Position numbers and translations under genes: made by a program. The notes below the pieces were generated by a model, which did no database searches, was not told the DNA's origin, and saw nothing but the letters and a program-made list of their open reading frames with translations. From assembly GCA_003117195.1 (NCBI GenBank), contig BDSI01000049.1:826501-890500 (forward strand): a stretch of 64,000 nt of DNA. The letters run 5' to 3'. Within the stretch, counting starts at the first letter, position 1. Each line of letters starts with the position of its first letter. The DNA is from Eudorina sp. 2006-703-Eu-15 (Eukaryota > Chlorophyta > Chlorophyceae > Chlamydomonadales > Volvocaceae). Of the stretch, positions 24,513-59,250 are shown piece by piece.

Positions 24513-25007
24513 ATGGCGGAGACAGTTGGCCAGCGCGTGCGCCTGTTCGAGCATGGCAGCAGTCCGGACAAGGAGTATTCACGAAACTCGAAGGTATCTG
24601 AAGAAACCAAAGTCAGTCATGATAGCAGCAGTTTCACAAGCAGCGGCAGATCGACCACCATTTCGACACCGGAGAACAGCGAGCCGCTTAAGAAGTTGGG
24701 CGTCTCTGACGTAACAGTGCAGAAGGCAATTGCGTCCATGAATACGTGCCCATTCGCACATGGGTCCGTGGGAGTCGGTGAGTACGAAATCACGCAGCTA
24801 TGTCGACGGTTGGTTCGCGGATGGCCTCGTCAACGCGCAGACGGCCATTTACTAAAATCACGAGTCGATAATTAAAATGAGCTGTCCTATTTTTTCGTCT
24901 CAACTTCCGATGTCGTAGGTCCCTATCCCGGTTACCGTCACGGTCGCAACCCGGAAATCTGCCCGCGTGGTTGCGTTCCGGATGCTGACCTCGAAAGGCA
25001 TGGCAAG
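24513..25007 (+). other. NOS-A exons 1-2: N-terminal Cys cassette
   Basis: Exons 24513-24777 and 24919-25007. A variable Ser-rich leader ends in a conserved block CPFAHGSVGVG, followed by PYPGYRHGR and CPRGC (Cys103, Cys107). All three NOS copies keep this cassette and the same phase-1 junction inside GVG. Animal NOS has an N-terminal CX4C zinc site; the CX3C here may be related, which is inference only. Confidence 0.85.
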
Positions 25008-28000
25008 GTAAGCATTTCGCTTTAAACCGTTCCTCCGGCGCTGACCATTACGTTGAAGTTCCCACACCCGACTCCGGGTCGTGCAGTTGTACGGAACCAT
25101 TGAACGAATGAATGAACGTTACAGTGAATGGTTGGGCATACCGCTGGCGCAGTTATCCACCTTCCAACCCTCTAAATTACTCCAGCTGCCCTATGCAAGT
25201 GGTAGCCGCCCCCGAGTGTTCTCCGAAACCACAACTTGCTCGTGTTGGTAGACTGTTTGAGTTTTGAGGAAAACGTTAAAAAATGGTCACGGAGGCCCTC
25301 CCCCTCCCAACGCATCCCTTTGATGAGTCTCAGAAAGGCGAGACCCCCCACGAGACCCTGATCCGCGAGGCCCTGGAGTACCAGGAGCTGTACCACCATG
25401 AGAAGGGCAGCACCGAGGCGGTCAAGCAGGCGCGCATCGCCGAGATCCTGGCGGAGATCAAGGACACGGGGACCTACACACACACCTTTGACGAGCTGCA
25501 GCACGGGGCGCGGGTGGCGTGGAGGAACGCGCCCAAGTGCGCCAACAGGTCCGTCAGCCGCGAGGGAGGCCCAGCGCCCAGGCCTGCGCCGTCTCAAGCT
25601 TCCAAAAGTGCACTGATGCCATAGTGCACTGATGCTGAAGGCATTGTTTAGCGGTGAGGTGTTTTGGGGCTGATGTGCGGTAATACCGTAACCCACGTCC
25701 GTGCTGCAGTTCTACGCTACACATGAGCTGTGCGCCTGGATTGCCGCGCGCAAAGTAACACAGCTGATCCACCCATACCTGTGCCTGTACGCCCGGCTGT
25801 ACTGGCCCGTCCCATGTGCAGGAAGTTCTGGGAGGTGGGTAGTGGAGAGCGAGTGCGTCCGCCCCATCAGAAGAGCTATAGCAGCCTCCAGGGTGTGGAT
25901 CATCACTAACATAGGGGGAAGCAACCACACGAGGACAGAATCTGTCAAGTCTGGTGGGAACGGGTCGAATCTGATGTTTCGGGCCATTGGAATACGCCTT
26001 CACGTTGGTACGCGGAGGGGTTTGTACACCTGTGTGGATACAGTATGGACTGTGTGGTCAGACAGCCCATAGTGGCCAGTCATGTCTAACCCATGGTGGA
26101 TGCGTACATGTATGCCACCAGCTCCCACTGGCAGCACTGGAAGTCTCGCCCCGTGAGTCCTGTGTCTAGGGGACAGGATGTCCATGTCGCCTTGCTCCCT
26201 GCAGGAGCTCAACCTGCTGGACTACCGGCACGTGGAGACCCCCGAGGGCATGTTCCGCGCCTGCCTGGAGCTGCTGGAGGCCGCCACCCTCAGCTGCGTC
26301 ACCACCGCCAACATCGTGTGCTTCAGGCCGCAGACGCCGGGCACACAGGACGGGCCGCGCGTGTGGAACAGCCAGCTCATTCGGTTCGCAGGGTAAGGAT
26401 GGCGACCCGCGGAGTCCGCTGTAACATCCTTAATAATGATGGCGACATTCTCCTTCGGACAGGCGTGTAGATTTCTCCTTACTTTCATGACCTGGCCTGG
26501 CATAGACGCGATCCTTGGATGTCGGTGCCGTCGCACAGCGTGAGTCGATGCACGTATACAACCGCTTCATGCTCGCATGCACTGCAGCAACCGTGAACCT
26601 TACCATCCGCTCCAAAACTCTGTCCCATACGACTGCAGTTACCAGCAACCCGACAACACAATCATTGGGGACAAAGCTGAGGCAGACTTCACAACCATGA
26701 TCCGGGTACGACAATATTCGGTGTCAGACCGGCGGTCGATGTTTGAATGCTAATTGATGTCCAACCAAATTAGTTATCCTTACTTCCACACATCATTTTA
26801 TTTTTTACCATTATTCTCTACGGCACTTAGGACTTTCGTTTGCAGTGCACCAGCGCAACTTAAAAGTGTACCGATTTGACCTTCTGCAACGACACCTTCG
26901 GCAAACTTATTGATTTAAGTGAAATTGTAATAATAAAGGCTTGAATAACTCGTTGCAGAGTTGCGTTCGAGCTGTTGACCTGCCGCGCTATGCGGACCGG
27001 CACCTCTCTTCCAAACGCCTCGTCCGCGGCGCGACGAACCCCAACACCGCTGTGTAGTGGTTCCTGCGGTTTCATTACCTATCCGCACCGCGCCACAGGA
27101 GGAGTTCGGGTGGGAGCCCCCGGCCAGCCCAACCCGCTTCGATGTCCTGCCGCTGGTGCTTCAAGTGCATCCCGACCAGGAGCCCCAGGTACGGAAGTAC
27201 GTACGTAAGTACGCACGTAGGAGACCAACCAGGCATCCTGTAGTACCCACGTGTACCGCTTTGGGTACCGCCCAGAAGCACCCAGCAAGCCGCATCGTGC
27301 CCAGGAGGAACATTGAAGTGGAGCCGCTGCGCAAGTTCTCGCGCCGTCGTCCGTCTTGCGGCGCGCGAAATTGCTGCCTGATCCTCCCTCTTTTGGACAT
27401 TGAACAACGAACGAAGGGTCGGCTTGCGAAAGGTCGCCGGGGCCACTTACACTCACTCGAGCCTGCGCAGCGCCAGCAGCGCGGCCGTACCGAGCGACGG
27501 GCCGCACACTGACGACCCCGATGCGGGGGATGGGCGAGTATGGGCCGGAGTACCCCGGCGCAGCACTGCTCAGCACAGGGACGCCCGGTCGGGAATAAGG
27601 ATCCACCTTGAAACGGTTACACTATAGTGACCAAGCCAAGGATACGAGGCTTCTTGCGCACGTTTCCTCGTGGCTATCCGCCCAAGCAAGATTTTGGAAA
27701 CCCGAAACACAACGTTCTCGTCGGGGTAGAACTGTAGGGCGCCAGCCCCTACAAAGACAAACATGATCAGCTCTCCGCTACCTTCAGAGCAGCAAGGTCG
27801 TGGCTGTGCATTACGTTCGTTGGCGCCTGGTCGACGCTAACTTCCCGCACTGCACTTGATGATCGGTCGTACGGAACGTGTGGTGCAGTGACACATCGCT
27901 TATCATCCACGGTCGTCAATGCTGGGCGGCCGTTGTCGCTGTAGGCTGCTGAGGATGCATCCACAACCATGCTTCCCAGGTTTGATTCTGACGCACTTGT

Positions 28001-31000
28001 GCGTGTTTGTGCATGTTTGTGTGTTGCGCAGATGTTCAGCGTGCCTCCGCAGTACGTCCCGCGCGTGCCCATCAGCCACCCGGACTACCCTCAAATCGCG
28101 GAGCTGGGTCTGCAGTGGTACGCGGTGCCGGCGGTCAGCAACATCGAGCTCAGCGTCGGGGGCCTGCTCTACACAGCGGCGCCCTTCAACGGTGGGTGAA
28201 GGATGGAGCGCCGGCCGGCCTGTAGAATTTGGCGGCGGTGAGCGAGTAGAGCGACACTGCTGCCGTCCGCCAGGCCCTAGTATCCTCGCAGTCTTGCTTA
28301 GCACCGCTGACTTCTCACCCGTCCATTGTTGCTGATGCGGCAGGCTGGTACGCCGTCACGGAGATCGTGCGCAACCTGTGCGACGAGAACCGGTGAGTGA
28401 GTCTGCCTGTCGCCGATGTGACAGGTCATTGACGCTGGTACAGCTGGTATGGCGACGGGAGTGTGTATCTCCTCGCATGCATTCCTTCGCGTGCATTTCT
28501 CGCTTGCGTCGGTCGGTACTGCTCTCACGGTACTGCTCTCACTCCGTCCCGATAGCCGCTGCTCAGACCTGCTCAGACCTGCTCCTCTTGCTGTCTTCGA
28601 CCGAGCAGTTTCCGCCCGCCGTGGTCTCAATTCGACTGGTGAATTCTATTGGTGAATCCATATCACATACATCTGAGGGATTGGACGCACGCACATACAA
28701 TGTTGCACTCGTGCTTTCCTTGGTTGATGAGAATGCCTACCCGTCCCTGCGCTCGATCGATCGCCAGGTACGACCAGACGTCCGCCGTGGCGACTAAGCT
28801 GGGCCTGGACATGCGCAGCGACGGCAACATGTGGCGCGATCAGGCGATCGTGACCGTCACCCAGGCGGTCATGAGCTCGTTCCGCGCCGCGGGGTACGGC
28901 ATGGTGGACCACCACACCCTCATGAAGAACTTCTGGACCTGGTGCGTGGATGGGGCGGGGGGGACGCGTGTTTACTGCAAGGGTTAGTTGCCAACTTCCG
29001 AATTGGAGTCAGGTTTTATCCTCAGGGCCTGCGTCATTGGAGATAGATGGATACTACTACGATACAGCTACATGTCTATGTAGACGCGGTGTGTAGTGTG
29101 ATCCTATCTGTGCGGCAAGATGTCCCTTCGCTGTCCCTGACAGCTTGACCGCGATGCACAGAGGCAATATCCTATGGCATACTGAAAGGGGTTACCCCTG
29201 CTAGGTGTGGTTGTGGCTCGCGCACGCAGCCGGCAGCCGCGAGTTGAAAATCACGGAGAGGTTCGGGCTCACGGGCAGGGTCAAGAGAGACGCGGCCTGA
29301 AACTGAGACCGCCCACTTTTTCGCCGGCCGGCTGCTTGCTTGCTCGCCCAGGTACAACCGTGAGAAGGAGCGGCGCGGCTTCGCGCCCGGCAACTGGAAG
29401 TGGATCATCCCGCCGGTCAGCCCCACCGCCAACATCAAGTGCTACCTGGAGCTCAACAAAATGACCGACTACACGCTCAAGCCGGGATACTGGTGGGTGC
29501 GAGGGTCACGCTTACCTCGCTTCGGCTAGCCACCTTAATTTCCTTGGCTGGGGCTCCCCGCGTTTCATCGATCACGCACTCGCATCGGCGGGTCCGACGG
29601 CCAAGCTACCTGCACTGCTGAACTGAGGGTCAAAATTTCTGAAAGCTGCCAGCATGTACGGCGGGTCCGCCTTGTATCGGGTTGCAAAACCCACCACGCT
29701 CATTGGTCGTACCCTTGCAGACTCAGTGCTTCCCTGTGGAAGGCAAGCCCATCTATCCAGCAGCCAGCTGCCCTGATTCACAAACCTGCAGTTGGCGGCT
29801 TGATTGACTTGCTACCCAGCAGACACGCGCGTGCAAACATACCTGTGCGGATGTGCTCGTGGCCGCTGCTGGTACTGCTCTCGAGCGCAGGATGTGCCCC
29901 GGATGGAGCAAGTACCGCGCGAGGCTGAACGAGGCGCGCAGAGCGTCCGCTGGCGGTGCGGCGGCGGCCGCGGCGTCCTTGAAGGCAGACATGCAGCGAA
30001 TTGCAACGTGGCGGCGAGCGGCGGCGGGCGGCCAGGCCTTCACCATGATCATCTACGCATCCGTTACTGGCAAGTAATACACACCGCATCCGCTGTTACT
30101 GGCAAGTAATTCATACCGCATCGATCCGCCGTTACTGGCAAGCAGCACCGGCCGGGGCTGTGCGTTACGTACGTAACAGGGGTACTATCGGGAGACAAGT
30201 GAGGAGGACGCCTACATGCGTCCTGCCAGCATGCAGAGATCGAGCGAGTCGCCGCTGCCACACCATGGATGTGTGCATCTTCCTTGTCAACGGTCTCTTG
30301 TTGGCTGTTCAATTCGATCTATCGGTCCCTGATCATCAACGAACTTGGCCTTAGCCATTCCCCTGGGCATCAAGCGAGCGAGGTTTGTGACCGCAAACAG
30401 GGTTGCAAATTTCATCCGCATCGGGAGCACGTGGTTAAGAAGAAGGGAAATCGGCTTGGACAGCCCGGTCGGCAGGTCGATCTAGTCCGCCCTCGCTGTA
30501 AGGTGCTTGCTTGCGCTACGGCCGAAGGAAAAGCCCGAGACGCGTCAAGGATGTTGGACCGAAGGGTCCGGTCACATACCAAGATACCAGCCGACGGACA
30601 TGTAGGGGCCGCCGGCGGATACATGCGTGAGCAAAATCAAACCCTCCAAACCGCCAGATTGGCTGTTCTCTGAATAAATGCTTGTTGGGCTCGGCGGCCC
30701 AGCCAGTAGTATTATTTCTTTCTTTCGGGCCCGGCTTCTTGCTCGTCTCTTTCAAGTCGATCGCTGCTGGTCGCATTTAGAGTCGATCGCTGCTTGCCTG
30801 TTTCTTTCAGTCGGTCTCCTCTTGCCTGCTGAAGTCGGTCCTTATTGCCTTAATGTTTAGTCGATCTTAGCTCGCTTGTCACTTCGAATCGATCTCTTGT
30901 TGCCTGGTCAAGTCGGGCTCTTGTTGCCTATTCAAGCCGGTCTCTTCTTGCTTGCTTGTGTGAGTCGATCTCTGCTTGCCTGTTTCAATCAGTCTCCGCT

Positions 31001-34000
31001 TGCCTGTTTGGGTCAGTCCCTTCTTGCTTGTTTGACGCCAGGTACGACCGCCAAGTACGCTGAGGCCGTGGCGTCGGTTCTTCGCGCCGCCATCCCCGTC
31101 GCGGTCGTGAATGTGGAGGTGAATGGAGGGGAGCGAGGTGATGGAGGCGCGGAGCTTCGGAGCGGGTGATTCATGTATGCACCCTGCCGTTTCCATCCTT
31201 GGTTGGAGTGAACATGTCACACGGTTGTCCCCCGTTGAATTATTATTAGGATGTTACAGCGGACCCCGCGGGTCATCGGTGACAGCCCCGGCGACAGCCG
31301 AGGCTTCCTCACCCGTTGAATGTAGATACCCGCGACAGGATGGACGACATAACACACACGAGACACACCAGCACGTGTGCTGCAGCATGCACTCGCAGCT
31401 GTATGTACGCGTAGTACGTAGCGTGAGGGAATGGTATATGTGCCCATTGAAAGTTTGCAACGGCATGCAAGCAACCATCAAAGTAGTTGCGTCGCATACG
31501 CTGATGACCAAGGTCGGGCGGCACGAGCGCGCAACGTACCGAATTTCGACGCGGTTTCCCGAAGGTACCTTCACAGGTTTATTTCCTTGGCCCATCCACC
31601 CGCCGCCGACAGGACTTCGAGCCCGACGGCTGGTCTGAGATGATCTCCCGAGCGACGTTCGTGGTGCTGATGACGTCGACGTACGGCCCCGGCGCGCCGC
31701 CCAGCTCGGCGGGGAAGTTCCTGTCCTGGGTGCAGAAGGGGCTGGCGCTGGGAGGTGCGTCCGTCCGTGACAGTTATTAGCAAAGCGAAGCGAAGCCGCG
31801 TGCTTGCAGGCTGCAGGGCGCGCTCTGCACCATGCGAGCGACTCGCTCTAATAAGTTCCTTGTCTTTGCGGGTCCTTGCGGGTCCTTGCGAGCTGCTGTG
31901 ATGCCTCCGGCCAGTCAAAGCTCGAACAGGAGCGAGGCTTCCTGACGTACCTTCGCGGCAGACGATTTCGATTGTGCAGCTGGGTCACATAGTCAATGTG
32001 CAGCTGGGTCACATGCATATTCAACGGTCATGCCGCTCCCTCACCTACCGGCAGGCGAGGCCCGTGAGGCGTTTGACGAGAAGCCCTTTGCCGTGCTGGG
32101 CTTTGGCTGCACCAGCTACCCGCGCTTCTGCGCCGCCGCGGACACGGTTCACACGCTGGTGTGTGCCACCGGCGCGCAGCCACTGCTGCCGGTTACCAAG
32201 GTACGGCTGCACTGGCCCGACAGACGTTGCCGCCGTACATACTAAATAGCTAGCTAGCTGCGCTGCCAAAATGAAGTAAATACGTACGTCGCCACCGGGG
32301 CCTATCACACCAGGTCTATCATACAGTTTAGCGGCTATATTTGTTCCATCTGTGTGGAACTCGTGATGCATTACATGTACTGGATGCATGTCAGGTAGGG
32401 TATCAACGAACTCCGCTCACATGCGACCGGCGAGAGCCCTCTCCCCGAGTAATGTGTAATGGATCTGCACTGTACGGTGTGTGGAGGCATACATGCTGTC
32501 AGAGTTCGCCAAAGACACTGAGGGCGGCCTGCTGGTAGATATGTACTCAGCCTTTGTTTGATGCCCTGTTAACACGCGCACTTCCTGCGCCTTCCCTCGC
32601 CTCCCTGCAGGTGGACTGCCTCAGCCACGAGGAGGTGTCGGTCTGGAGCTGGGCGCGCGACCTGCTCTCCGTGGTGGTCCAGAAGGACCTGCTGGAGCCG
32701 CACGTGGCCGAGGCCGCTGCGCCGCGCATCCCCATCACCCTGGACGGCAAGCCCAAGCCCTTCGTGCCCTGCTACACGCTGATCGACCTGGCAGGTGGGT
32801 GTGCGGAGCAAGCGTCGTCATCAGGCGGGGCAGGCACATACACGCACAGCACAGCACAGCACAGTCAGCCTGCTGCGGCTCCGTGCGTGTGCACACTCGC
32901 CACTTCGCTGGGGGTCCTTGTGGGGTATCGCTGTCACACCCACACTCTTGTTCAGTCCAGATACCGTTAAAGGCCTTGCTTGGGGTTGCACACATGCGTG
33001 CTGTGTGATAGCCGCGCGGGTAGGGCGGGGCCGCACAGACGGGAAGGGCGGACCCCCGCTGATGAAGTTGGGGGTGATGACAGCTAGCGGTCTATGCCAT
33101 ACATCCGCAGGTGTGGAGGGCGTGCGGGCGGCCGCGGATCGGTTCAGGAGCGAGGCGACGATAGTGGCGGTCTGCGAGCTGCGACGGGACCTACGGAACG
33201 AGCACGGCGCGGACACTGGGGGCCCGGCCACAAAGCAGGTGCGTCGATCGTACGTCTCCGTCCCATGAATGGTGGTGCGGGGGTTCGTTGCCCGGTTGCT
33301 GGCAGCCAACCCTTGACGTTGCGTGCGGTGCCTGCACATGCAGACACGCTGGCCAGTCTATAGGCTTTTTGTGATGAATGGTACCGTCTAGAGCACAAGA
33401 TCAACCTGCTGCTTTATTTGTTTATTTAGATCGCGTGCATGCAGTCTCACCACATGGGCGTGCATGGTTTCGGGGTGTGACTGCTGCGCCTTCAGACGAG
33501 AGGCCACGAGCGACCCCCGTGCGTTGCTTAATCTGTTTGTGGCCGTGACTTGCTCATCCATCCATCTCTCCTTCCAACCGCTTGGATGTGCGTGACAGGC
33601 GCGATACTGGTCCGGAATGAGTGCGTGCCGCGTTCCTCAGAATAGGTTGCCTCGCAAGATATATACCGGCGTTGTCTCGCGCCTAGTCATTTCTCACCAT
33701 GAGCAGGTCCATCGACCTCGCGCTAGCTTTGGACCCATCGACGGGTTGCAATATCGACGGGTTGTGTATGTGTCACTTATTACACAGGTCGTTCTCGACG
33801 TCAGTAAGCTCCCGGGTGGCGGCTTGTCGTACCTCGCGGGCGACGAGCTGGCCGTGTGGGCCGAGAACCCACCCGAGGCGGTTGCCGCCGTAGCAGCGGC
33901 TCTGGGCCTCCACGGCAGCCACCTGGACGCCATGTTCCTGCTCCAGCGGGTTCCGCTGCGCCAGCCTTCAGTACCTGTGGGGAGCGCCCTTGCGGAAGCT

Positions 34001-37000
34001 GTTGAGACCGCCAAGACCGGACTGGCGGTAGAGGATGACGTGGGGGGCCTGGACTGCGCGCCCTTCCCGCTGCCCAACAGCTACCGGACCATCCTCACCC
34101 GCTATGTCGCCCTGTACGACAAGCCGTCGTACGAGGCCATGCGTGCGCTGCCCCTATACGCGCCCGAGGCAAGCAAGTTGCGAGCGAGCGTGGCGGCACC
34201 CACAGTTCGGGACCGATCCTGATACCTCGTGCTGTTGCAGGCGTGGCAGGGGCCTGGTCACAAGTGTAAGAAGTGCTCTATAATAACTATTGTTGTTATC
34301 GATATTAGTACTACTTTTATTTGATTACTATAATATTAATCCTAAAAATATTTTTTACATATTGTTTTTGTTATTTTATTCCGACATGCATGCAACTTAA
34401 GCGCGTACGGGCGGTGTCGATGCACTTACCGCAACCTCTGACCCTGACGCGCTTTGGTTATTATTAGGATGTTACAGCGGACCCCGCGGGTCATCGGTGA
34501 CAGCCCCGGCTTTGGTTTATGGCCTGCAGGACGAGCGGCTAAAGGCCATCAGCAGGTCGTATGCGTCGTACCAGGACTGGGTGTCCGCCACGGGCATCCG
34601 CTGGTGCGACATGTGGAAGGAGTTCCCCTCCCTGATGGGTGAGTACATAAGAGAAGCCGTGTTCGCTGCCATAGACGTCGTGAGTAGTGCGCTTCAACCA
34701 ACACGATGTCACCCCATGCACGCGTTGTGTACCGCAGGCCGCGTCCCTCCCTCCGTGTTCTTCCAGCTGGCGCCCACCATCAAGCCGCGGCACTACTCCA
34801 TCAGCAGCTCCGCCTCCAAGCACCCGGGGCAGCTGCACCTCACCGTGTCCCGCCTGTCGTACCGACTGCCCTCGGGCGAAGTGCGCGACGGCTTCTGCTC
34901 GTCCTTCCTGGCCACCCGCAAGCCGGGCGACCGCGTCGGTGTCAAGGTGCTGCCCACCCCGGGCTTCCGCATGCCGCTGAACCCTTCGGCGCCGGTCATC
35001 ATGGTTGCGGCCGGAACCGGCATTGCGCCCTTCAAGTGAGTCCGGAACTGCTTGGTGGTAATATTTTCTCCAGCATATACGAGACAAGCGAAATCCACAA
35101 ATCTCAGTGATGTAGGCCGCACTTGACGAGACGCCTGTATGTCTGTGCGTGTATGTGTATGTGTGTGTATGTGTTCGTCAGGCACGGCAGGCGTGTGTGT
35201 GTGTATGCGTGTTTGCGTATGCGCGTGAAGTGCTTAACATGCTGGGCCTCACACGCGCTCTGGCGGCTTTCCGTTCGCGCAGGAGCTTTTGGGAGGAGCG
35301 CCTGGCGCGCAGTGCCGCCCCAGTTGTCGTGCAGAAGCTTGCAGAGCGAGGAGGCGGCGGAGTTGCCATCGACAAAATTACTGTCAAGCAGCAGCTGGGT
35401 CCGGGGTTGTTGATCTTCGGTTGCCGGAACAGTTCCAGCGAGTACATTTACTGCGATACAATCCAGGTACATAGCAGTACGCACTCCCTGATGTACGCGG
35501 AGCAGGCACGCTGCTTCACCGTACGTACATTCATCCCTTTTAGCGCTATCGTCTTCTTATTGGTGAAGACAAAAGGGCAGAATAAACAATGGTTTTTGGG
35601 CCGGTGGACATGGGCCATGTCCCTGACGTGGCCCCTGGTATGTACACACGCGACATGATATCCTCCATCCGTTGTAAGTCGTCCTGCTGCTGCTTACAGC
35701 CCCTCACTTACCGAGGCAGGGAATCGCTGTTGCTGCCAATCCGACGGCATTCCCATGCCGCCGCACATCCATATCTATGTAAGGTATGAACGTTTTCGCC
35801 GCCCGCCCGCCCCGCCCCGCGCTCTGCAATCAACCGCAGGAGGCCCTGTCGGAGGGCGCTCTGAGCCGCGTGCTGACGGCCTTCAGTCGTGAGCCCACGA
35901 CCCGCAAGCAGTACGTCCAGGATGTGGTGGTGTCGCACGCGGACGAGCTGATGCCGCTGTTGGGCGATCCCCACTGCCACGTCTACGTGTGCGGCAGCAG
36001 CAACATGGCGCAGGAGGTCGCGCTGGCCTTCCAAAAGGTGACCCCTGTCCACCCTATCCTTTGATTCCATCCAGCACGTGTAGGGCTGGTGCGCGCATGT
36101 GGCTGGGTTCTTATAGGTACGAGCCAGGTCCGCCGCCCTCCGCATTTGCAGCTTGCTTGATCCGTGCGTGATTCCTGGCCGATCATCACGTACAAATGTA
36201 CAAATGCGGACTTGTCGTACGTGCTGCATACGTCTTGTCTGTGCCGTTGATAATACCGCACCCATAGTACACACCCGAAGAAAAGTTCCAAACCGTGCCC
36301 AAAACAATTTTGCACGTATGTGAGTGAATGAACGTATGTGTGCGTGTGTGTATGTGTGTGGTACTGATCTTCAGGTGATGGGCGCACATAACTTCACAAG
36401 CCTGGTGGACAGTGGCCGCTATCACGAGGTATGCCAACGGTACTCATGCTGGCTGCTGGGAACTCCTAGAAAACCTAAGAAGCCCCCCGCTTCCGTGCGC
36501 CAAGGCCTACACGTTGCCGCCTACCTCCTGCATGTTGACATTCACCAGGACGTCTTCGGTATCGTCATACCCGACTACCGTGCCGCAATCAAGTCCGCGG
36601 CGACCAAGGGCACAATCACGCTGCTGGGCAACGCCAGCGCCTTCGAGGTGAGAGAGAGAGAGAGTCCGACCATGACGTCGCACCGTCTCCAATGCCTTAG
36701 AAAGCTAGGGTCCTCCGCCGGTTGCTGTACGACAGTTTAAACTGCGTTCCGTGGCGCGACGGGCTACGCTGCTGCATGCTGCTGTGTGTTGCATAAACGT
36801 ATATGGCTGTCACCGATGACCCGCGGGGTCCACTGTAACATCATTATTAGTAATAAACGGTACAGAGGGCTCCCACAAGGGATCATCGGCGCTACTATAC
36901 CAGGATGGAGGAACCCCAACAAGACCTAGCCGATCGGACAATGACGCAATACTACTCCCGCACCACAACGCCGCGGAAACCCAACAGGGTCGGAGCATTG

Positions 37001-42580: not shown

Positions 42581-42677
<97 letters not shown>

Positions 42678-42728
42678 ATGTGCAATGTGCAATATATGTG
42701 CAATGTGCAATATATGTGCAATGTGCAA

Positions 42729-42763
<35 letters not shown>

Positions 42764-43077
42764 GTGCAATGTGCAATATATGTGCAATATATGTGCAATG
42801 TGCAATATATGTGCAATATATGTGCAATGTGCAATATATGTGCAATATATATGTGCAATATATGTGCAATGTGCAATATATGTGCAATATATGTGCAATG
42901 TGCAATATATGTGCAATATATGTGCAATGTGCAATATATGTGCAATGTGCAATGTGCATATATGTGCAATGTGCAATATATATATATATATATATATATA
43001 CGGGGGCATTACCAATGTATATATATATATATGTTATATATGTATATATGTTATATATGTATATATATGTATGTATA

Positions 43078-43135: not shown

Positions 43136-43154
43136 CGGGGGCATTACCAATGTA
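42573..43154. repeat. Composite satellite: (AT)n with GTGCAAT minisatellite
   Basis: A long (AT)n run (about 42583-42680) passes into an array of ATATATGTGCAATGTGCA-type units (about 42680-42976), then more (AT)n/(GT)n. The sequence CGGGGGCATTACCAATGTA occurs twice, at about 43002 and 43136, the second joining directly to repeat D. Confidence 0.97.
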
Positions 43155-43383
43155 ACCGTTACAAGGTGGACCCGTATCCCGACCTGGTGTTCCAACGGGC
43201 CCAGATAGCTCGTAGGTGCCTCGTCTCATCAAACCCTACCAAGGACTGCGCACCCATCCGCCATCACCCGCGGGGGGGTCATGCAGCCATACCGGCCACC
43301 ACACCAGGTTACCAGCGCGCCAGGATTGCCTCTCCTCGAAACCGCGCCAGAACCGCCTAATCACACGGCGATGAGGGGACGGG
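43151..43383 (+). repeat. Repeat D, copy 1 (about 233 bp)
   Basis: About 90 percent identical by eye to 48415-48649. It begins TGTAACCGTTACAAGGTGGA and ends in GATGAGGGGACGGG. Both copies hold a roughly 64-codon GTG-started open frame, but its changes do not look like those of a conserved protein. Probably a non-autonomous mobile element or a piece of one. Confidence 0.9.
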
Positions 43384-44988: not shown

Positions 44989-45026
44989 CTCCAGGAGGGC
45001 GTTCCGTTTCAGGTGTGCGCTCCAGG
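44989..45026 (+). promoter_or_regulatory. Shared upstream motif, NOS copy B
   Basis: CTCCAGGAGGG is followed 15 bp later by GTGTGCGCTCCAGGG. The same two blocks in the same order occur at 62876-62916 upstream of copy C; copy A keeps only the first. They lie about 190-220 bp before the start codon. Confidence 0.6.
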
Positions 45027-45211
45027 GATCCGGATCGATGCAGTCCTAACTAACACCTAAAATAACATAAAAGCGCATTCACTTCTACAATTTGGGAATT
45101 GAGCAGCTTTTCACTCTGCTCAAACAACTCTTTCGGGGTGCGCCCTGTCCGGCCCTATTTACTTTCTTGTTGTAGTCGAGGCCGACTCTGCGCCGCAAAC
45201 CTCCGGAACTA

Positions 45212-45730
45212 ATGGCAGATTCAGAACCTAATGGTGGTCACAACGGTTGCGTCCATTCGCAGTCGGGTAATGGAGATCTTGTCAGCACCATCTGTTCGGA
45301 TGCCATCGTTCAGAAGGCCAAGGAGGCCGTTCGCACCTGCCCATTCGGGCACGGCTCTGTGGGTGTAGGTGAGCTGTGCCGATAGCGAAGCGTGCCATCA
45401 CTACAAGAGTTGTCGTCGCGATCCCGCTTCCCGTCACTGCACGAGTTGTCGTCGCGAGCCCGTCGGGACAGAGCACATCGCAATGTAATCCTCCGTGATC
45501 CCTCGCGATTTCGCGTTAGCCCGATACTCCGCCGCATGAACGAGAATCTTGCACATCTTATGAGAAACTGTGAAATGGAAGTAAGGTGACTACTTGTGAA
45601 ATTGTAACCGTTGCCTCCGTTGATCTGTATTCATGTCACAGGACCATACCCTGGATACAAGCATGGTCGGCATCCTGCGATTTGCCCTGCGGGTTGCGAG
45701 CCAGACCCGACGTTGGACAGGCATGGCCGG
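45212..45730 (+). other. NOS-B exons 1-2: N-terminal Cys cassette
   Basis: Exons 45212-45368 and 45642-45730. The leader is 36 residues shorter than in copy A but ends in the same CPFGHGSVGVG / PYPGYKHGRHPAICPAGC block (Cys67, Cys71). Confidence 0.85.
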
Positions 45731-48700: not shown

Positions 48701-51700
48701 ACCCTCGGCAAATCGATGTACGGTACCCGCTGCGCCGCCCCCTGCTGACCTGTGCAGATGTTCCACCTGCCAAAGCAGTACGTCCCGCGCGTGCCCATCA
48801 GCCACCCGGACTACCCTCAAATCGCGGAGCTGGGTCTGCAGTGGTACGCGGTGCCGGCGGTCAGCAACATCGAGCTCAGCGTCGGGGGCCTGCTCTACAC
48901 AGCGGCGCCCTTCAACGGTGCGTGGGTCGGTGGAGGAGCTTGCGAGTTAGCAGGCGGCGGCCGGCGGCCTGTTGCTTAGCTTGTGGCGGCGGTTAATGAT
49001 GGCGTACATACACGCATACCGTCCGCCAGGTCCTAGTAGAGGCACCGCCGTCTTCTCAACCTGTCCGTTGGTCTCACCTGTTGTCCGTTGTTGGTGTTTT
49101 CGCGTAGTAGCCTCAGCCTCTGCCTCAGCCTAGCCTTGCTTGCGTGGCACCGCCGCCGACTTCATCCTCACCTGTCCTTTGTTCTTATCACCTGTCCATT
49201 GTTGCTGATGCGGCAGGCTGGTACGCCGTCACGGAGATCGTGCGCAACCTGTGCGACGAGAACCGGTGAGCAGCAGACCTTTGGGACGGGAGCGCTCCAC
49301 CTACTGGTACGCGTAGGGCAGTTGTGTGCTTGGAAGTACGCACGCACACATAACTTTGAACACTCGTTCTCCTCCTTAATGAGAATATACATACACCTAC
49401 CCGCGCCTGTGCTCGATCGACAGGTACGACCAGACGGCGGCCGTGGCGACCAAGCTGGGCCTGGACATGCGCAGCGACGGCAACATGTGGCGCGATCAGG
49501 CGATCGTGACCGTCACCCAGGCGGTCATGAGCTCGTTCCGCGCCGCGGGGTACGGCATGGTGGACCACCACACCCTCATGAAGAACTTCTGGAGCTGGTG
49601 CGTGGATGGGGTGGGGGGCCGGTTAGTTGTGGAGAGGCATGGGCGCGCTAAGTTTGGTGTTTCGTTCGGTGTTTCATCTAGGATAACCCGCTCGCTGCTG
49701 CACCGAGGTTTTCAGCAAAAGGCGGCGTGTGCCGAGGTTCTCAGCAAAAGGCGGCGTGTGCGGGCCAGCGATCAGACGACAGGCAACGAAGACAACAGCC
49801 GCTTACGAAGGCTGGCCTGACCCAATCCTGAAAGCAGGCAGCAACGGTGACCCGAGCATACAACTCGATCCCGCCAGGGGGAGGGCGAGGAACCAGCGTT
49901 CATGGCGCGACTTGACAAATTGTAGATCGCATACACATGGGGGACGAGCGACGAAATGCTGTACGTATGTGCTTGAACGAATGCAGGTATAACCGTGAGA
50001 AGGAGCGGCGCGGCTTCGCGCCCGGCAACTGGAAGTGGATCATCCCGCCGGTCAGCCCCACCGCCAACATCAAGTGCTACCTGGAGCTCAACAAGATGAC
50101 CGACTACACGCTCAAGCCGGGATACTGGTGGGTGGGTGTGACATGAGGGGTGGAGCGAGCGGGTCGGTCATGCTTGGACGGACGCAGCAGCGGCACGGTT
50201 ATGTATGGCGCTGCGACGCTGGGTTGCTGCTGGTTGGAACGGTGCACATCGATGACCAAACACAAAGGCGCTGTTCCCAATCAAGGTGAAGGCAGCATTA
50301 ATGTGTGTGGTTCCATGATGAGCCTGCTGCGTGGTCTTGATTCAGCGATGCGCGGACGGCATATACAGGATGTGCCCGGGTTGGAAGGCCTACCGGGAGC
50401 GGCTCAGGAAGGAGCGCATCTCAACACCCGAGAAGGCCGCGGCGGAGGTCGCCAAGAAGCAGCTGTTCCGGTCCATGTCCACCTGGCGCCGGGCGGCCGC
50501 CGGGGGCGACACGTTCATGCTGATCATCTACGCGTCCGTGACCGGTGAGCGAAGTAAATGAAGGAGATAAAGAACGAAAGAGATGTGCGAACGCCCGTCC
50601 ATCCGTAGCCAGTGCATCGCGTCATCACCCGTACCCTGATGATGAATGTAAAAATGTGTCAGCGGTCCCCAAAGTGGGATACCCCCGGCGGTGGCGCTCC
50701 TGAAAACTCCGGTGTATTTTGATGTATGTGTTTCCAGCAGCAGATGTATGTCGCCCGACACTGTAGTTTCCACTACTGAAAATGTGCGTGCGTGTGTGTC
50801 TGCCGCCCGGCCCAGGCACGACCGCCAAGTACGCCGAGGCGGTGGCGGGTGTGATCCGCAGCATTATTCCCGTCGCAGTGGTTAACGTCGAGGTGCGTCG
50901 CGCAATTTATTAGGGGTCACGCGTGCATTATTTCTTTGGCGTACGTAATTATTTTGTACAGTCCAAGGATCCCATATCCATTCGGCCGCGAATCTGTAGA
51001 GACCCAGGAGAGTTCATCCATCGCCACCAATCCAGCGTGCGAATCTCGATCCATCAACTGTGGTCTTATCTCGACATCTCCAAATATCATCCGCTCGCCA
51101 TCTCTACGCACGCGACTGACCCTATATATATCGCGCTTGACCACACGTTTCCTAGATAGAAGCGTTGCTGCGGCAGATGGGTGATGGGCGGGGTTATGAT
51201 TCTGTACGTCCATCCGGCCCCACGAACCGACAGGACTTCGAGCCCGACGGCTGGTTTGATATGATTGAGCGCGCGACGTTCGTGGTGCTGATGACGTCGA
51301 CGTACGGCCCCGGCGCCCCGCCAAGCTCGGCGGGGAAGTTCCTGTCCTGGGTGCAGAAGGGCGTGTCGCTGGGAGGTACGTCCGCCGTCCAGGGCAGTGA
51401 GTTCGTTGAGGGCATTCGAGTTGTGCTGAAAAGCAAAGAGGTCCCAGGACTACCATGTTCTCACGTGTTGATAGTGCTGCCCGCGCGCACCTCCCTCCAC
51501 TGCACACGCCCCCCTTGCCAGGTGAGGCCCGTGATGTGTTCGACGACAAGCCCTTCGCCGTGCTGGGCTTCGGCTGCACCAGCTACCCGCGCTTCTGCGC
51601 CGCCGCGGACACGTTCCAGACCCTCATGTGCGCCACCGGGGCGGAGGCGATCATGGGCGTCACCAAGGTGCGGGCGGGCAGCAGCCCCTTGCTTGACAGC

Positions 51701-54700
51701 AGCTCCTAGGTTCCTGCTGTGGCTGGGTCCACCCTACCCTTATTATGTTATCTCAGGGAAGGTACAGTGGGTAATTGATAAGTGCATGCCGTGCGAGTCT
51801 GGAATGTGTGCATTTGAGCTAGCTTGATGGCTGTAGCAATAATTCAGAAACACATGCCGCATGCAGGTGGACTGCCTGAGCCACGAGGAGGTGACGGTCT
51901 GGGGCTGGGCGCGCGAGCTGCTGTCCAAGGTGGCCCAGAAGGGCCTTTTGGACCCCCACGTTGCGGACATCGCGGTGGCGAATATCCCCATCACCCTGGA
52001 CGGCAAGCCCAAGCCCTTCGTGCCCTGCTACACGCTGATCGACCTTGCAGGTGGGTGGGTGACGAGGATTCGGGTGGGTGGGTGCGTGTCTTTCACGTGT
52101 TGTCCTGTTGTGCATATGCAAATATGTATATATATGCGCGTTTCCTCACGTACCCTGGCGGGCTCATGTACCAATCAAGGTAATAGGACGGTCTTGAGTA
52201 ACCGCACGCACGCCTGTGCGGATGCTGAGCTGAGATTTTTCCATCAGACGCACAGAAGTGATATGCAAGGGCTTCTGCTGTGGGGAACTCTCTGTCTGTC
52301 CCATTGACCAAAGCTTTTTTTGGCCGCCGGTATAAGCCGGTCCGTCATTACTGTACAGGCGGCGTGTCTGCTGTGGCTTTTTCTGTTTCCTACTGGATCC
52401 GCCGCCTCTTGTCGTCGTACCTGCCTGACGCTTATTATTACACAGGTGTCCAGGGCGTGCGACCAGCAATCGATAGGTTCCGGAGCGAGGCGACCGTTGT
52501 GGAGGTGGTGGAGCTGCGCCGGTGCAGTGGAGATGAGACGGCCAACGGCGGGGAGTCGACCAAGCATGTACGTGTGCGACGGAACACGAGTGAAGGAGAA
52601 CGAATAGGGATGTTCTTCGGTGTATATTATCACGTCCGGTGTATCAAGTGCAATATGAGGTTCATTGGCATCCACGCATATCTTTTCACGTTTCTTGTGG
52701 CCCACTGCTTGCAGGTCATCCTCGATGTCAGCAAGCTCCCCGGCGGCGGCTCGTCCTACCTAGCGGGTGACGAGCTGGCCGTGTGGGCCGAGAACCCGTC
52801 AGAGGCAGTTGCCACCGTTGCGGCGGCTCTGGGCCTCCACGGCAGCCACCTGGACGCCATGTTCCTGCTCCAGGATGCCCGAGACAAGGACGAAGAGGAC
52901 GGGGCAGGTCCCCTAGCCGAGGCCGATGAGGAGGAGGGCCGCCTGGACTGCGCGCCCTTCCCGCTGCCCAACAGCTTCCGAACCATCCTCACCCGTTACA
53001 TCGCCCTATACGACAAGCCGTCGTACGAGGCCGTGTGCGCGCTGCCGCAGTACGCGCCTGAGGTGCGCAAGCCTTGCTAATGGCTTGCCTTTACTCTCCT
53101 TCTACGCGTATTTTTCTTTCTTTACTTTATCCACGCATTTAGGAACTGGCCTGATGCAGGTCAGAACTACCGTTCGTTCTGGCATGTACACGTTCTGGCA
53201 TGTACAGAGAGGACAATATAGATGGATGGCCGAGTTCTGATCCCGGGATTCCGCCTTCCTGATCCGTTCCCATCTCCAGGACGAACGGCTGGCGGCGATT
53301 GCAAAGTCGTACGCGTCGTACCAGGAGTGGGTCTCTGCGACAGGCACTCGCTGGTGCGACATGTGGAAGGAGTTCCCCACTCTGATGGGTAAGGAGAAGA
53401 CATGCATGGTTTACCGTAGCATGATGATATCATGAAAGCAAATACCTAAATGTCTTCATTACGATGCCATCGCAGGCCGCGTCCCTCCCTCCGTGTTCTT
53501 CCAGCTGGCGCCCACCATCAAGCCGCGGCACTACTCCATCAGCAGCTCCGCCTCCAAGCACCCGGGGCAGCTGCACCTCACTGTGTCCCGCCTGTCGTAC
53601 CGGCTGCCCTCGGGCGAAGTGCGCGACGGCTTCTGCTCGTCCTTCCTGGCCACCCGCAAGCCGGGCGACCGCGTCGGTGTCAAGGTGCTGCCCACCCCGG
53701 GCTTCCGCATGCCGCTGAACCCGTCAGCGCCGGTCATCATGGTTGCGGCCGGAACCGGCATTGCGCCCTTCAAGTGAGTCCGGAACGTGTTCGTGCCTAT
53801 ATGTTTCCAGCATGTTCGAGCAACAAAACGCGGCCAGTCCACCCGCGTCATGTGTACGTACGTATGTGTTTTGATTCGCACTAAACTTCCGTTGTCTGTT
53901 GCCATGCTGTGACCTATAAGTATACATGTGAGCGCGCTTTTGTTATTAATAACAGCAGTGATTCTTTTCCAATAACCCCATCTGTCCTCCTGTATGTCCT
54001 GCCTTCACCTCCACGCAGGAGCTTTTGGGAGGAGCGCCAGGCCCGGAGCGTGGAGGCGGTTGAGGCGCAACCGCTGGCCGAGCAGAGCTCCTTGAAGGCC
54101 ACGGGCGGCGACATCAAGCTCAGCCCCAACAAACCTACGAATGGCTCGGTGACGCAGCAGCTGGGACCGGGCGTGCTGATCTTCGGCTGCCGCAACAGCA
54201 CCACCGACTACATCTATTCTAACACGGTGGAGGTAGGTGCGCACCGTGATGCTGTGTGTGGATGTAGCCGGCGGCCAGCCATATGCACGAACATACACTC
54301 TTGCCATGCTGCATTTCATTTCATCGATGCTGCTGCTGTGTGTCGCCATTACTTGTTATTAAGGATGTTACAGCGGACCCCGCGGGTCATCGGTGACAGC
54401 CAAAGCGTTGCCGTGTCGTTTTCGCATGTACACAGGACGCCCTCGCGATGGGCGCTCTGAGCCGCGTGATCACGGCCTTCAGTCGTGAACCTTCCACCCG
54501 CAAGCAGTACGTCCAGGACGCAGTGGTGGCCAACGCAGATGAGCTCAAGCCGCTGCTGGCGGCCCCCGGCTGCCACGTCTACGTGTGCGGCAGCAGCAAC
54601 ATGGCGCAGGAGGTCGCGCTGGCCTTCCAAAAGGTAGGTACCTAAGGACTCTCCTCCCGGGCTCCACACGTGCACCGAAACACACCGCGCACCCACTCTA

Positions 54701-57700
54701 CCAGGGAACCAACCCGTTCCAGAAGACCAACCATAGCCAGGGATAAAGCCCGCTCATGGGGAGTTAGCCACCACCACCCTAGCCAAGACCTGCCGGATCA
54801 CGTCTCGGGCGGTGGCCCATACATAGCCTTGGAAGGCGACGGGAGCTCGCGAGCCACTATCAGGGGCCGGTCCGGCGTATGTAAATAACTACCAGGCGAG
54901 CCACTATCAGGGGCCGGTCAACCTGCGTCGTCCGCTAACGTTCTCGGCAGCGTGTACCGTCTGTAGTGCGGTCTGCTGCGGATGACCATACACATACAAG
55001 TGGGTCAGGGTGGGTCCACACCAACGAACGCCCTTCCTTCCTTCCTTCATGATGCCGTACACGCACCGGACATTACGCTTGCCCACCCGACCATACGCTT
55101 CTGGCTGCTGGAGGGAAGGACAGCTTTATTTATGCGTCTATCGCGACCTTCGTTGTGTGTGGCGTGTTTGACTGGTCCTACCTGCTAACAGGTTATGGGG
55201 CCCCACGAATTCACCAAGATGGTGGACGCTGGGCGCTACCACGAGGTGGGTAAATGTGTCATTTATTGCCGTGCTGAACACCCCGTATGAAATTAGACCT
55301 ATAGACCAAAATCGTGAGCTTGGAAGCATGGCCGTTTCATCAATGTATAATGCAACCTTGCGCACCGATCGAGCACGCACGCGCGCTCTCTCCTGTATGT
55401 GCTCCAGCTGCCCCAGCTGACCATCTGTGTCGTGCCGGTCCCGCCAGGACGTGTTCGGCATCGTCATTCCGGACTACAGCGGGGCCATCAAGGCCGCCGC
55501 CGCGCGGGGTACTCTCGCGCTGCTGGGCAATGCCACCCCCGCCGAGGTACGGAGGAGTCCTACGCTCCTGCCTGCGGGTCTCAAAATTGGCTGTGTAGCG
55601 TAGGCCGTCGAGAAAGGAAGCCTACATCGCTTCGCAAAGCTCAGCGTGTGACCTCGGCATGTATCCCAGCGGCTGAAAAGTAAGCACGTATGCGTGCGTG
55701 GCGTGCTGACCTGCCAGGTGGCCGAGATGCTGGACAGCGGCGCGCTCACCGTGGATGCCCTTGACCACGCGGGCCGTACACTGCTCCACATTGCCGTACA
55801 AGCGTCCAACGCGCCCCTGGTGCAAATGCTCCTGGAGCGGGGCGGCTGCGCTATGAACGTTCTCGATATGTACGGCTACACGCCGCTGCAGCTGGCACGC
55901 GTTGTAAGTTTCTGCGTCATCACCGGGGTTGCCCCGCTGCTCTATCTATCTGTCGGTGGGTGCGTGCCGCAGGGGTTTCTCCTGGGGTGCCCGGGTGACC
56001 TGGGGTACCTTGCTTGGGCCTTCACGAAGGAGGTTGTGCGTGGCTGCGCAGTAAAGCGCGAACGAAGCTAACTGGAAACATGATATATGGTATACGAGCA
56101 TCTGCTGCCGCGCCTTACCTTCTGCATCTGTCTGGATGCCGTCCAGACGGGCCAGCCGGAGCTGGCCGCCCTCCTGGAGTCCCGCGGCGGCCGCCTGGTT
56201 TCCCGGCTGGTGTCCCAGTTCTACCCGCTTCACGCTGCGGTGATGGAGAATGACCTGGAGGCGGTGCGGGCTGCCATTGCCGACGGCGCCAACCTGGCGG
56301 CTGCGGAGTTCCATGGCCTGACGCCGCTGCATGTCGCCTGCTCGGTGGCGGGCGAAGAGATTATCAAGGTGCGTGTATCATCTGATGCGGAGTGTCCGGG
56401 CAGCGAGGTTAGAGCATTAGTGAAAACCAGAGCCCCTACGCCTGTATGTGGGCAACAATTTTGGAAGCAAGAAGAGACCACAGGGTTCGTTGCAAATTTG
56501 CAAATTTGCAATGAAGAGCGAGCGATGCATGCGGCGGCCATAGGCGCCTGATCCTCCCACTCGTGTCAAACATCGCTGTTGCCCGAGCATCTCAACTTCT
56601 GCCGTGTCCTGCCTACCTGCGTGCAGGCCCTTATCGCGGCCGGCGCGCCCCTGGACGCGACGACGAGGCGGGGGCTTCTGCCGCTGCAACAGGCCCTCAT
56701 TCTGCAGAGGACGGAGGCGGCCGACCTGCTGCAGGTGCGCGATGAAAAAAGATAACTCCGCTGCAGTGTGTGCATCTTCCAAAACGGGGAAATAAAATTC
56801 CGCAGGTTTCTGGCCTGTCGCCAGTAGCCAAAAACCCTTCGTCAGGGCAGGTTTTGGGGGCCTTCCTAGGTGCCAGGAAATCAAAACCTCCGTGGCAGGT
56901 CTGGAAATATTTCTGCGTGTTTCAACGGCAAGGCCACTGCTACCACAGCTATGACAGGGATTCACAGTCTTGAAGGGCTGAAGCGCGCTTTCTGTGCGTC
57001 GCGGATGCATATGGGAGGTTTACCAGGAGTCGGGGACACGGCATCAGAGTGTGTTTGGCGGTAGACAGGTGTATGACGCAGGAATTGTCCCTGCGCCTGC
57101 AGATTTCCAGGCCCTTTTGGTAGTCTGGAAAATAGTTGGCAGGGCAGGTTTCCGGCTCTCGCAGGTTTTTGGGGGGTCCGAGAAATACATGCCGGGTTTT
57201 GGCCCGTAAATATTTGTAGCAACACTGCTCCGCTGTGGTAAAGGCAGGCGCGGAAACATACATAAAACTGCCAAGACGTCAACAGGGCAAATTACAACAC
57301 GCCAGCTGCTGCCCGGCAACCTTCCCGCACATGCAGTCATGAACTTATTAGATTGCCCGCTACGCAACCCGTTTTCATTCCATTCGTTCGCCACCGACCG
57401 ACCTGCGCCGAGCGCCGCAGGCCGCCGGTGCGCCGCTGGTGGTGGAGCACGTGGTCAGCGCGGGCCATGAGGGCGACGCGGGCAGCAACAGCAGCGTCGC
57501 CTGGTCGCCCCAGACCAGTGACGGCCTGCTAGCGGCTGTGGGACTGACGGAAGAGGAGCTTGCAGCGCTGCAGGTAGGCAGCAGGACAACTCACTGGCCT
57601 GCATATCTGTTGTCGCACACACGACATATGTGCGGCACAACGTAAAGCACGGAACAGATAGGCGTATAGACCTTGTATACTATGTACTACTGAGCCATGG

Positions 57701-59250
57701 CGGATTTGGGGGACTGCCTGGTTGATAACGAGCCACGGCGGGCCACGGCGGATGCCTGCTTGCTTTTTGCAGGGCTCCTGGGCGTTCCTCAGCGGTGTCG
57801 CCTTCCCACCCCGGCGCGCGCGCATGGAGCAGTTCTCCACCGACTTCTTCCTGAGCCTCTTCGACCAGTGCCCGCACCTGCTGCGGCTCTTCCCCTTCAA
57901 GGACTGCGAGGTGAGTGCGAAGTAGGGGTTGTACATGTATACGCGCTTCCGTCTTGAGAGACACGCACTTCCGTCTTGACGCATACGTGCAGGGTTTCTG
58001 CCGTTGCTCTGCTGCGTGCACGCGGAGGGTATCGATCCCTGGTAGCCAGCACCGATGCTTGATCCCTTTGTGGAGCTCGCTGTGGCACGCATTTCAGCCA
58101 CACCGTAACGGCTTGCACATGTTATTACGTCCGCAGGGCCAGCCGCTCATGGCCGAGATCAAGGCACACGCCATCAAGGTGTTCTCCATGATCGGCTCCT
58201 TCCTCATGCTGCTGTCCAACTACTCCGTTCTGGACAGGTGAGCGATCCGCCGAGCGAGAACGATGGATGCTGCTGGCCCAGCGGCTGTATGCATGTGATC
58301 GTAAATCAAGGCAAACAAGCAAGAATTGGTGCACGCGCGCTCGCTACCTATTGGAGGCTCGTCATAAACCGTTCATCGTTCGTTGTCCCTAGCTACCTCG
58401 CGCTCGTATGTACACCGTACACGTATGGGACTGCATGACTGCACGTTTGCGCCCTGCCTGCTGGCAGTGGACTAGACACGGCCAATAATGGCAAGTGGAC
58501 CAGACACGGCCAATAATGGCAAGTGCGGACCCATGACACACAACCCTATATATACGTGTATTATTATGTATGTACCGGGGATGGCGTGCGTGCGTGCTGC
58601 CCGCCCGGCGTTAGTCTTCAGCAGCTTAAGTCCGTTCGTTCCCGCGGGGTGGGGGCCTTTGATACTCAGTGTTACCTACCGCGTATTACTCTAATAGAAG
58701 TATCGCACGCGTACCCTCCCACCCTGTATGTCGTACATACACAGGATCGCGCGCAGCCTCGTGGCGAGGCACATCGGGTACGGCGTCGAGCAGTCGCACT
58801 ACGAGGTCTTCATCAACCTGCAGCTCGACTTCATTTCCAAGGTACGTATGTGTACGACGTATGTGTACGTCATGTATTGTATCTGATGACCGGGCCTGAC
58901 GCTGGCTTACGTCTCACTAGTAACGTCGCAGGTGTAACGTCTCATTACTAATAACAAGGCTGTTCTAGCCGTTCCCTGTGTAACGCCGGGTTACAGTACA
59001 AGTCCCTACACTGACCCTGCACAGTATCTCGAGAAGCCTTTGGCCGCGCCGTGTCACACCCTGCGTGGATGACACAGTTCAGTTACTCCCGTTGCGACGG
59101 ACTTGCGGCCTTTGGTTGCAGGAGCTGGGGCCCCTGTGGGACGACACCAATGCGTCGGCGTGGCGCAAGGTGTTCGCACTCCTGCGCAAGATCGTGCAGT
59201 CCGTGTACGAACAAAAGCAGCAGGCGCAGGAGCGCGCCAGCGCAGCCTAG
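45212..59250 (+). CDS. NOS: Nitric oxide synthase copy B: NOS oxygenase-FMN-FAD/NADPH-ankyrin-globin (32 exons, 1547 aa)
   Basis: Thirty-two exons add to 4644 nt, all in the same positions and phases as copy A. Order by residue: Cys cassette 1-82, oxygenase 83-448, linker 449-498, FMN about 499-689, FAD and NADPH about 690-1170, ankyrin about 1171-1342, linker 1343-1393, globin 1394-1547. Key residues: proximal Trp145 and heme-ligand Cys151 (WRNAPKC), Glu333, Trp418, globin His1450 and His1482. Differences from A lie mainly in the N-terminal leader, the oxygenase-FMN linker (charged in B, Ala-rich in A), the acidic FAD-domain loop of exon 18 and a 10-residue longer exon 21. All its donors are GT. 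ATG 45212 opens the only frame leading into the CPFGHGSVGVG block. No disabling change was seen; reaction and pathway as for copy A. Confidence 0.96.
46594..50127 (+). other. NOS-B exons 3-11: oxygenase domain
   Basis: Exons: 46594-46808, 47009-47021, 47339-47526, 47769-47835, 48289-48378, 48758-48917, 49217-49265, 49424-49597, 49987-50127. Most of the exon sequence is identical or nearly so to copy A (exon 9 is identical over all 49 nt), while exon 7 and the first bases of exon 8 differ. Confidence 0.95.
48415..48649 (+). repeat. Repeat D, copy 2 (about 235 bp, NOS-B intron 7)
   Basis: Same orientation and extent as 43151-43383; it begins 36 bp after NOS-B exon 7. Copy A lacks it at this position. 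Confidence 0.9.
54353..54402 (+). repeat. Short dispersed repeat, family A1 (33 bp before NOS-B exon 22)
   Basis: Near-identical to the A1 copies in NOS-A. It is in intron 21 of copy B, where copy A has no such element, so the insertions post-date the duplication. Confidence 0.9.
54660..54782 (-). mobile_element. Fragment of retroelement 3' end, inverted (NOS-B intron 22)
   Basis: CCATAGCCAGGGATAAAGCC, then CGCTCATGGGGAGTTAGCCA, is the reverse complement of the end of the element at 61013-61080. Two further copies of a GCGAGCCACTATCAGGGGCC segment follow at about 54846-54916. Confidence 0.75.
55718..57573 (+). other. NOS-B exons 25-28: ankyrin repeats and linker
   Basis: Exons: 55718-55903, 56147-56368, 56627-56734, 57421-57573. 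Signatures are GRTLLHIAVQASNAPLVQML, GYTPLQLARV, FYPLHAAVMENDLEAVRAAI, GLTPLHVACSVAG and GLLPLQQALILQRTEAADLL. Exon 26 is almost identical to copy A, exon 25 is much more diverged. Confidence 0.93.
57773..59250 (+). other. NOS-B exons 29-32: C-terminal globin domain
   Basis: Exons: 57773-57910, 58137-58237, 58745-58841, 59122-59250. Helix-E block IKAHAIKVFSMIGS (distal His1450) and helix-F block VARHIGYGVEQSHYEVF (proximal His1482), then LGPLWDDTNASAWRKVFAL and a Gln/Ala-rich tail. Confidence 0.93.

Follow-up and report, generated by a model that had tools for sequence, protein, structure and literature searches.

Tandem nitric oxide synthase genes with an ankyrin-globin tail in Eudorina, and a proposed common origin of the tail among green algae

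The question raised by this 64-kb stretch of Eudorina sp. 2006-703-Eu-15 DNA (the window; contig BDSI01000049.1, positions 826,501-890,500, in an assembly of 181 Mb) is whether a green alga encodes a nitric oxide synthase (NOS) that continues in one protein into ankyrin repeats and a C-terminal globin, and, if so, where this tail came from and what it would do. The initial annotation had read the locus as such a fusion without prior description; the fusion is confirmed in this alga, and the absence of prior description does not hold, the architecture being already known from other green algae, so that what is new here is evidence on the origin of the tail. The chances appear about even that each gene specifies a single polypeptide that makes nitric oxide (NO) and likely oxidises it to nitrate at its ankyrin-linked globin, with the tail fused once and the triplication local. 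Supporting this are the frame kept in three copies, the module order, the heme-ligand and cofactor motifs, selection, and the green-algal relatives.

Gene models, protein class and relatives

Translated self-comparison of the window located two gene copies separated by approximately 18-21 kb, with the opening exons of another copy near 63 kb, and a search of the 181-Mb assembly with the NOS-oxygenase family PF02898 returned 12 exon matches, four per gene, in three adjacent genes. Gene models were obtained by exon chaining across the three paralogues under the constraints of frame, phase and splice sites, with the proteins of relatives as a further check. The corrected proteins of genes 1, 2 and 3 comprise 1586, 1547 and 1558 amino acids, each encoded by 32 exons in a single unbroken frame, and the two complete genes first called in the window were thereby rebuilt at identical lengths. 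The three genes have 93 introns, 91 with GT-AG borders and two, both in gene 1, with GC-AG borders; a 13-nucleotide microexon in genes 1 (25822-25834) and 2 (47009-47021) encodes KFWE together with the neighbouring exons. Phase and splice sites are conserved in all three copies, in each of which the oxygenase, flavin mononucleotide (FMN), flavin adenine dinucleotide (FAD)/reduced nicotinamide adenine dinucleotide phosphate (NADPH), ankyrin and globin modules are read through in the same frame, and a single transcript is predicted for this alga. The features within the window are as follows.

24513..41468, forward strand: gene 1, start to stop codon; 32 exons, 1586 amino acids
25334..29492, forward strand: gene 1 NOS oxygenase core exons; microexon 25822-25834, heme-Cys motif WRNAPKC 25520-25540, GWYAVTEI 28343-28366
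29891..32794, forward strand: gene 1 linker and FMN (flavodoxin) exons (Pfam, gene model)
33111..36428, forward strand: gene 1 FAD/NADPH exons; RYHEDVFG at the end, spanning exons 23-24
36549..39112, forward strand: gene 1 exons 24-28, junction and ankyrin segment (Pfam, gene model, ankyrin profile)
39641..41468, forward strand: gene 1 exons 29-32, globin (Pfam, gene model, globin tree)
45212..59250, forward strand: gene 2, start to stop codon; 32 exons, 1547 amino acids
46594..50127, forward strand: gene 2 NOS oxygenase core exons; microexon 47009-47021
50369..52050, forward strand: gene 2 linker and FMN exons (Pfam, gene model)
52446..55245, forward strand: gene 2 FAD/NADPH exons (Pfam, gene model)
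55448..57573, forward strand: gene 2 exons 24-28, junction and ankyrin segment (Pfam, gene model, ankyrin profile)
57773..59250, forward strand: gene 2 exons 29-32, globin (Pfam, gene model, globin tree)
63068..64000, forward strand: start of gene 3; exon 1 63068-63263, exon 2 63400-63488 (complete beyond the window, ending at window-equivalent position 77328; 32 exons, 1558 amino acids)

The Pfam scan, the first search for relatives and the oxygenase and single-globin searches were run with preliminary models, which differed from the final ones in having S for KFWE and as many as 14 surplus residues ahead of exon 3; the globin query was unaffected. In genes 1 and 2 the domain search of the spliced proteins, a check that had been proposed at the outset, recovered the NOS oxygenase PF02898 (1.1e-113 and 5.5e-114), the FMN, FAD and NADPH modules PF00258, PF00667 and PF00175 above cut-off in both proteins, ankyrin domains and a globin (2e-13 and 6e-15); in gene 3, ankyrin and globin follow the NADPH module by alignment with the other copies. 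The heme-Cys motif WRNAPKC and the arginine-site Glu motif GWYAVTEI are kept in all three genes, and the motifs reported in the initial annotation lie in frame where it had placed them, with the qualification that GTGIAPFKSFW is split by an intron and contiguous DNA encodes GTGIAP only. An N-terminal zinc Cys pair of the form CX3C is present in all three genes and in 11 of the 12 relatives checked (P0008 lacks it), which fits the atypical zinc region mentioned by Chatelain et al. 2021 (PMC8728061). The oxygenase can be aligned with bovine-type eNOS structures and with a NOS of 1468 residues that is consistent, in its length and order of domains, with SyNOS of Synechococcus PCC 7335. By its oxygenase, reductase modules and Cys pair the protein classes as a nitric oxide synthase, predicted to convert arginine to citrulline and NO. 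The oxygenase-FMN-FAD/NADPH body is common to Ostreococcus-type and animal NOS; the animal rows sampled with the ankyrin profile lack the ankyrin-globin tail, and no row was identified as Ostreococcus NOS.

All four module groups are under purifying selection. Over the three pairwise comparisons, the ratio of nonsynonymous to synonymous substitution rates (dN/dS) is 0.12-0.31 for the NOS modules, 0.20-0.21 for the ankyrin segment and 0.35-0.39 for the globin. Given this selection, and relatives with an identical order of domains, a chance origin of the arrangement is very unlikely.

The first protein search scored 7995 candidates and listed 52 matches, among which 10 carry NOS and ankyrin; among the best 120 of the 321 matches of a second search, 12 carry NOS and ankyrin, and 11 of these also a globin. 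The same domain order, for which a search of algal proteins had been suggested, was thus found in at least 11 relatives. Apart from P0006, placed with Chlorella in the NOS tree, these NOS-ankyrin proteins come from named green algae; the searches added Chlorella vulgaris, Micractinium tetrahymenae, P0006 and, with a truncated globin, Apatococcus. In the NOS tree the three Eudorina genes join Gonium, Chlamydomonas incerta, C. schloesseri and Edaphochlamys with support of 100/100.

The supposition that no NOS with an ankyrin-globin C-terminus had been described is contradicted both by these relatives and by the literature. Of the papers behind the comparison systems (PMC8728061, PMC7554344, PMC12922734 and PMC4620153), PMC8728061 is the one that describes green NOS-globins: a C-terminal extension with an ankyrin (ANK) motif and a globin in Klebsormidium KnNOS2, and C-terminal NOS-globins in Gonium (for which it cites Santolini 2019), C. 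incerta, C. schloesseri, Edaphochlamys, Chlorokybus and Mesostigma. It adds that their biological functions still need study. The Eudorina proteins have the same module order and junction as this KnNOS2 type (Klebsormidium KFL_006460015, Edaphochlamys EdNOS, CiNOS, Gonium, Mesostigma, Chlorokybus), and share with its described members a homologous tail, in ankyrin and globin alike.

The globin and its possible role

Each tandem gene would yield one polypeptide whose oxygenase half makes NO from arginine. The C-terminal globin would then likely oxidise that NO to nitrate with electrons from the enzyme's own flavin reductase: the FAD/NADPH module would reduce the globin heme, heme presumably being held at both sites, and the ankyrin segment would serve as spacer and docking surface keeping the globin near the reductase. 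The output would be NO and nitrate, and by analogy with SyNOS we propose either a self-limiting NO source or an arginine-to-nitrate enzyme for nitrogen salvage. SyNOS likewise joins NOS and globin, and its globin is reported to be an NO dioxygenase, with products in a ratio of approximately 1:3 NO to nitrate and reduction of the globin by the SyNOS FNR at 0.22-0.25 per s; Chlamydomonas THB1, also an NO dioxygenase, draws electrons from the FAD of nitrate reductase. This assignment is drawn from sequence, with activity, heme state and expression as predictions.

The window proteins belong to neither the SyNOS type nor the flavohemoglobins. In SyNOS the globin is N-terminal and accompanied by a pseudoglobin and a C2 domain, whereas the window genes place it at the C-terminus. 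Since their globin is neither N-terminal nor of the SyNOS group, they are not SyNOS-type globin-NOS; the two SyNOS-type rows lie outside the green group in the globin tree and have other heme-pocket residues. The flavohemoglobin Hmp pairs a globin with an FNR-type reductase. In Hmp the globin comes first, directly followed by the reductase, with no NOS, and the different order in the window proteins (NOS oxygenase, reductase, ankyrin, globin) indicates that they are not flavohemoglobins.

The globin tree comprised 29 rows, of which 16 are green: 14 from NOS proteins and two fragments (P0053 and P0054) whose link to NOS is unseen. The record of P0010 (Apatococcus) ends within the globin and was omitted. 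All 16 green rows have Phe, Phe, His and His at what we take to be positions B10, CD1, E7 and F8. The predicted structure of P0053, an ankyrin-end and globin fragment from Apatococcus, is a globin fold near Hell's Gate globin I and neuroglobin. A single globin query ranked rice hemoglobin first, and a family profile ranked Hell's Gate globin I first. Plant phytoglobins share Phe B10 and His E7 with the green NOS-globins. A NOS-globin parentage of the phytoglobins was considered and rejected, given the profile ranking and a tree that puts rice and barley outside the green NOS-globins; that placement is weak, plants being represented by these two rows only, and on a long branch. Among the nearest stand-alone profile matches is the globin Clim_evm7s227 (P0058), presumably of Corallochytrium, a relative of animals; in the tree it lies outside the NOS-globin group. 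The globin family PF00042 gave no matches in the alga's own assembly despite the three globins, the search being blind to globins split across exons, and PF01152 gave three truncated-globin exon matches elsewhere.

Several observations weigh against this combined reading of function and history. The module order differs from that of SyNOS, and the SyNOS FNR would reportedly need to rotate by 90 degrees and shift by 28 A to act like Hmp. Unlike the green globins, the two SyNOS-type rows combine Tyr B10 with Gln or Leu at E7. By dN/dS, the globin evolves faster than any other module. Finally, in the tree of NOS bodies, 7 of the 22 rows of the green group lack the tail, so that losses or incomplete gene models are needed; either the tail is dispensable or the tailless models are incomplete.

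The serious rival, possible although on balance unlikely, is that the globin is a sensor and not an NO dioxygenase, its heme binding oxygen or NO and throttling electron flow to the oxygenase through the ankyrin segment. The pocket is suggestive, His E7 with Phe B10 being the combination of the rice and barley rows, and neuroglobins come next after Hell's Gate globin I when the P0053 model is used in Foldseek. Control may also sit outside the FMN module, which has no long insert (44 residues from ST(Y/F)G to GFG/GLG, compared with 37 in an iNOS and 73 in an nNOS-like protein). However, the proteins have no output domain besides NOS itself, and the precedents of SyNOS and THB1 are dioxygenases.

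Origin of the tail and weaker alternatives

The NOS-globin organisation "could have independent origins", in the words of PMC8728061, and a tail gained independently in several green lineages would explain why tailed and untailed proteins are interleaved on the NOS tree, with a minimum of five changes, and why the tailless KnNOS1 is sister to the tailed KnNOS2 (99/98). Mesostigma also changes position between trees, lying with the streptophyte rows for NOS (99/96) and with the chlorophyte rows for the globin (95/86). However, all 16 green globins fall on one side of a 99/97 branch, with the SyNOS-type, plant and stand-alone globins on the other. When the tails of Mesostigma, Klebsormidium, Apatococcus and two Chlorokybus were made into an ankyrin profile, it matched all 10 other green tails, on the chlorophyte side, end to end as one domain at 144-165 bits, compared with only 33-79 bits for the best domain of each of 12 generic ankyrin proteins; this separation is by best-domain score only, as 7 of the 12 exceed the window tails in total score over many repeats. 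The tail also begins at the same point in relatives, directly after RYHEDVFG. Repeated gain is thus considered improbable.

In the NOS-body tree of 40 rows, all 15 tailed proteins lie within the one 22-row green group, with a support of 85/93 that is not decisive. Together with the globin branch and the ankyrin-profile matches, this speaks for a single ancient fusion at an early stage of the green lineage, probably followed by several losses. The NOS of the trebouxiophyte Apatococcus (P0010) groups with the streptophyte Chlorokybus and Klebsormidium rows (100/100), and the Apatococcus fragment P0053 weakly so in the globin tree (81/38), which may hint at transfer between lineages or old paralogy. 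We put forward tentatively, at well under an even chance, that NOS-ankyrin-globin was the ancestral green-plant NOS, fused before the chlorophyte-streptophyte split and taking arginine to nitrate through its own reductase. If so, the enzyme missing from land plants did not simply synthesise NO but turned arginine into nitrate, with control of NO built in. Three complete copies under purifying selection in one alga, together with a tail that seems to stem from a single ancient fusion, would make a long-standing question testable, namely the role of NOS in the green lineage before its loss in land plants and whether it yielded NO or nitrate.

Two weaker alternatives concern the protein as a whole. 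The oxygenase deviates locally from mammalian NOS, for example with KFW for IQW downstream of the heme Cys, and could belong to a NOS-like enzyme of other chemistry that makes no NO; against PF02898 scores of approximately 1e-113 and motifs conserved in all three copies, this is very improbable. That the NOS and ankyrin-globin parts are distinct, separately transcribed genes is scarcely credible. Each copy does hold one TGTAA between exons 22 and 25, a motif that we take to be the polyadenylation signal in this group of algae, but TGTAA density within the genes (0.64-0.77 per kb) is approximately that of the background (0.71 per kb), the conserved phase and splice sites span all three copies, and in 11 relatives the annotation or assembly gives one protein with all the domains.

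Divergence of the copies and neighbourhood

What sets the array apart from the other KnNOS2-type members is its three tandem copies, which form their own group in the NOS tree (100/100), separate from the Edaphochlamys pair (100/100). The latter (P0001 and P0005; HYH03_006385 and HYH03_006386) have neighbouring locus tags, which point to another tandem NOS array in that alga, distinct from this one; one copy is annotated without the ankyrin-globin tail. Barring conversion that has obscured the signal, the two arrays seem to have arisen independently, and the triplication is most likely local to the lineage of this alga. Genes 2 and 3 are the closest pair, with 90.7% amino acid identity, 86% agreement at fourfold sites and 8.4% of intron bases alignable; genes 1 and 2 share 79.4% amino acid identity. 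Duplication by haplotype or assembly is ruled out by dS of 0.15-0.68 between copies and by alignable intron bases of 1.2-8.4%.

Seven exons chosen post hoc (c3, c4, c7-c10 and c19) agree between genes 1 and 2 at 207 of 217 fourfold sites, where codon usage predicts 49% agreement; the remaining exons agree at 288 of 482, and 1.2% of the intron bases of the two genes are alignable. Homogenisation thus seems restricted to exons, which short-patch gene conversion or conversion via complementary DNA would explain. Exon DNA of the two genes is 97-100% identical, fourfold sites included, at 25334-25548/46594-46808, 26205-26392/47339-47526 and 34738-35035/53476-53773, as well as in exons within 28032-29492/48758-50127.

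A 239-base piece at 43149-43387, between genes 1 and 2, recurs with 93% identity at 48413-48651 in an intron of gene 2, and a dense ATATATGTGCAATGTGCAAT-like repeat array occupies 42645-42975, just past gene 1. Scans of the 64-kb window with Rfam and for transfer RNAs found nothing, and 17 of the 20 flanking open frames had no Pfam match. Upstream on the forward strand, exons at 19661-20764, of which one scores below cut-off, match the membrane domain of an ABC-2 transporter, and an exon at 10218-11060 matches class-I fructose-bisphosphate aldolase.
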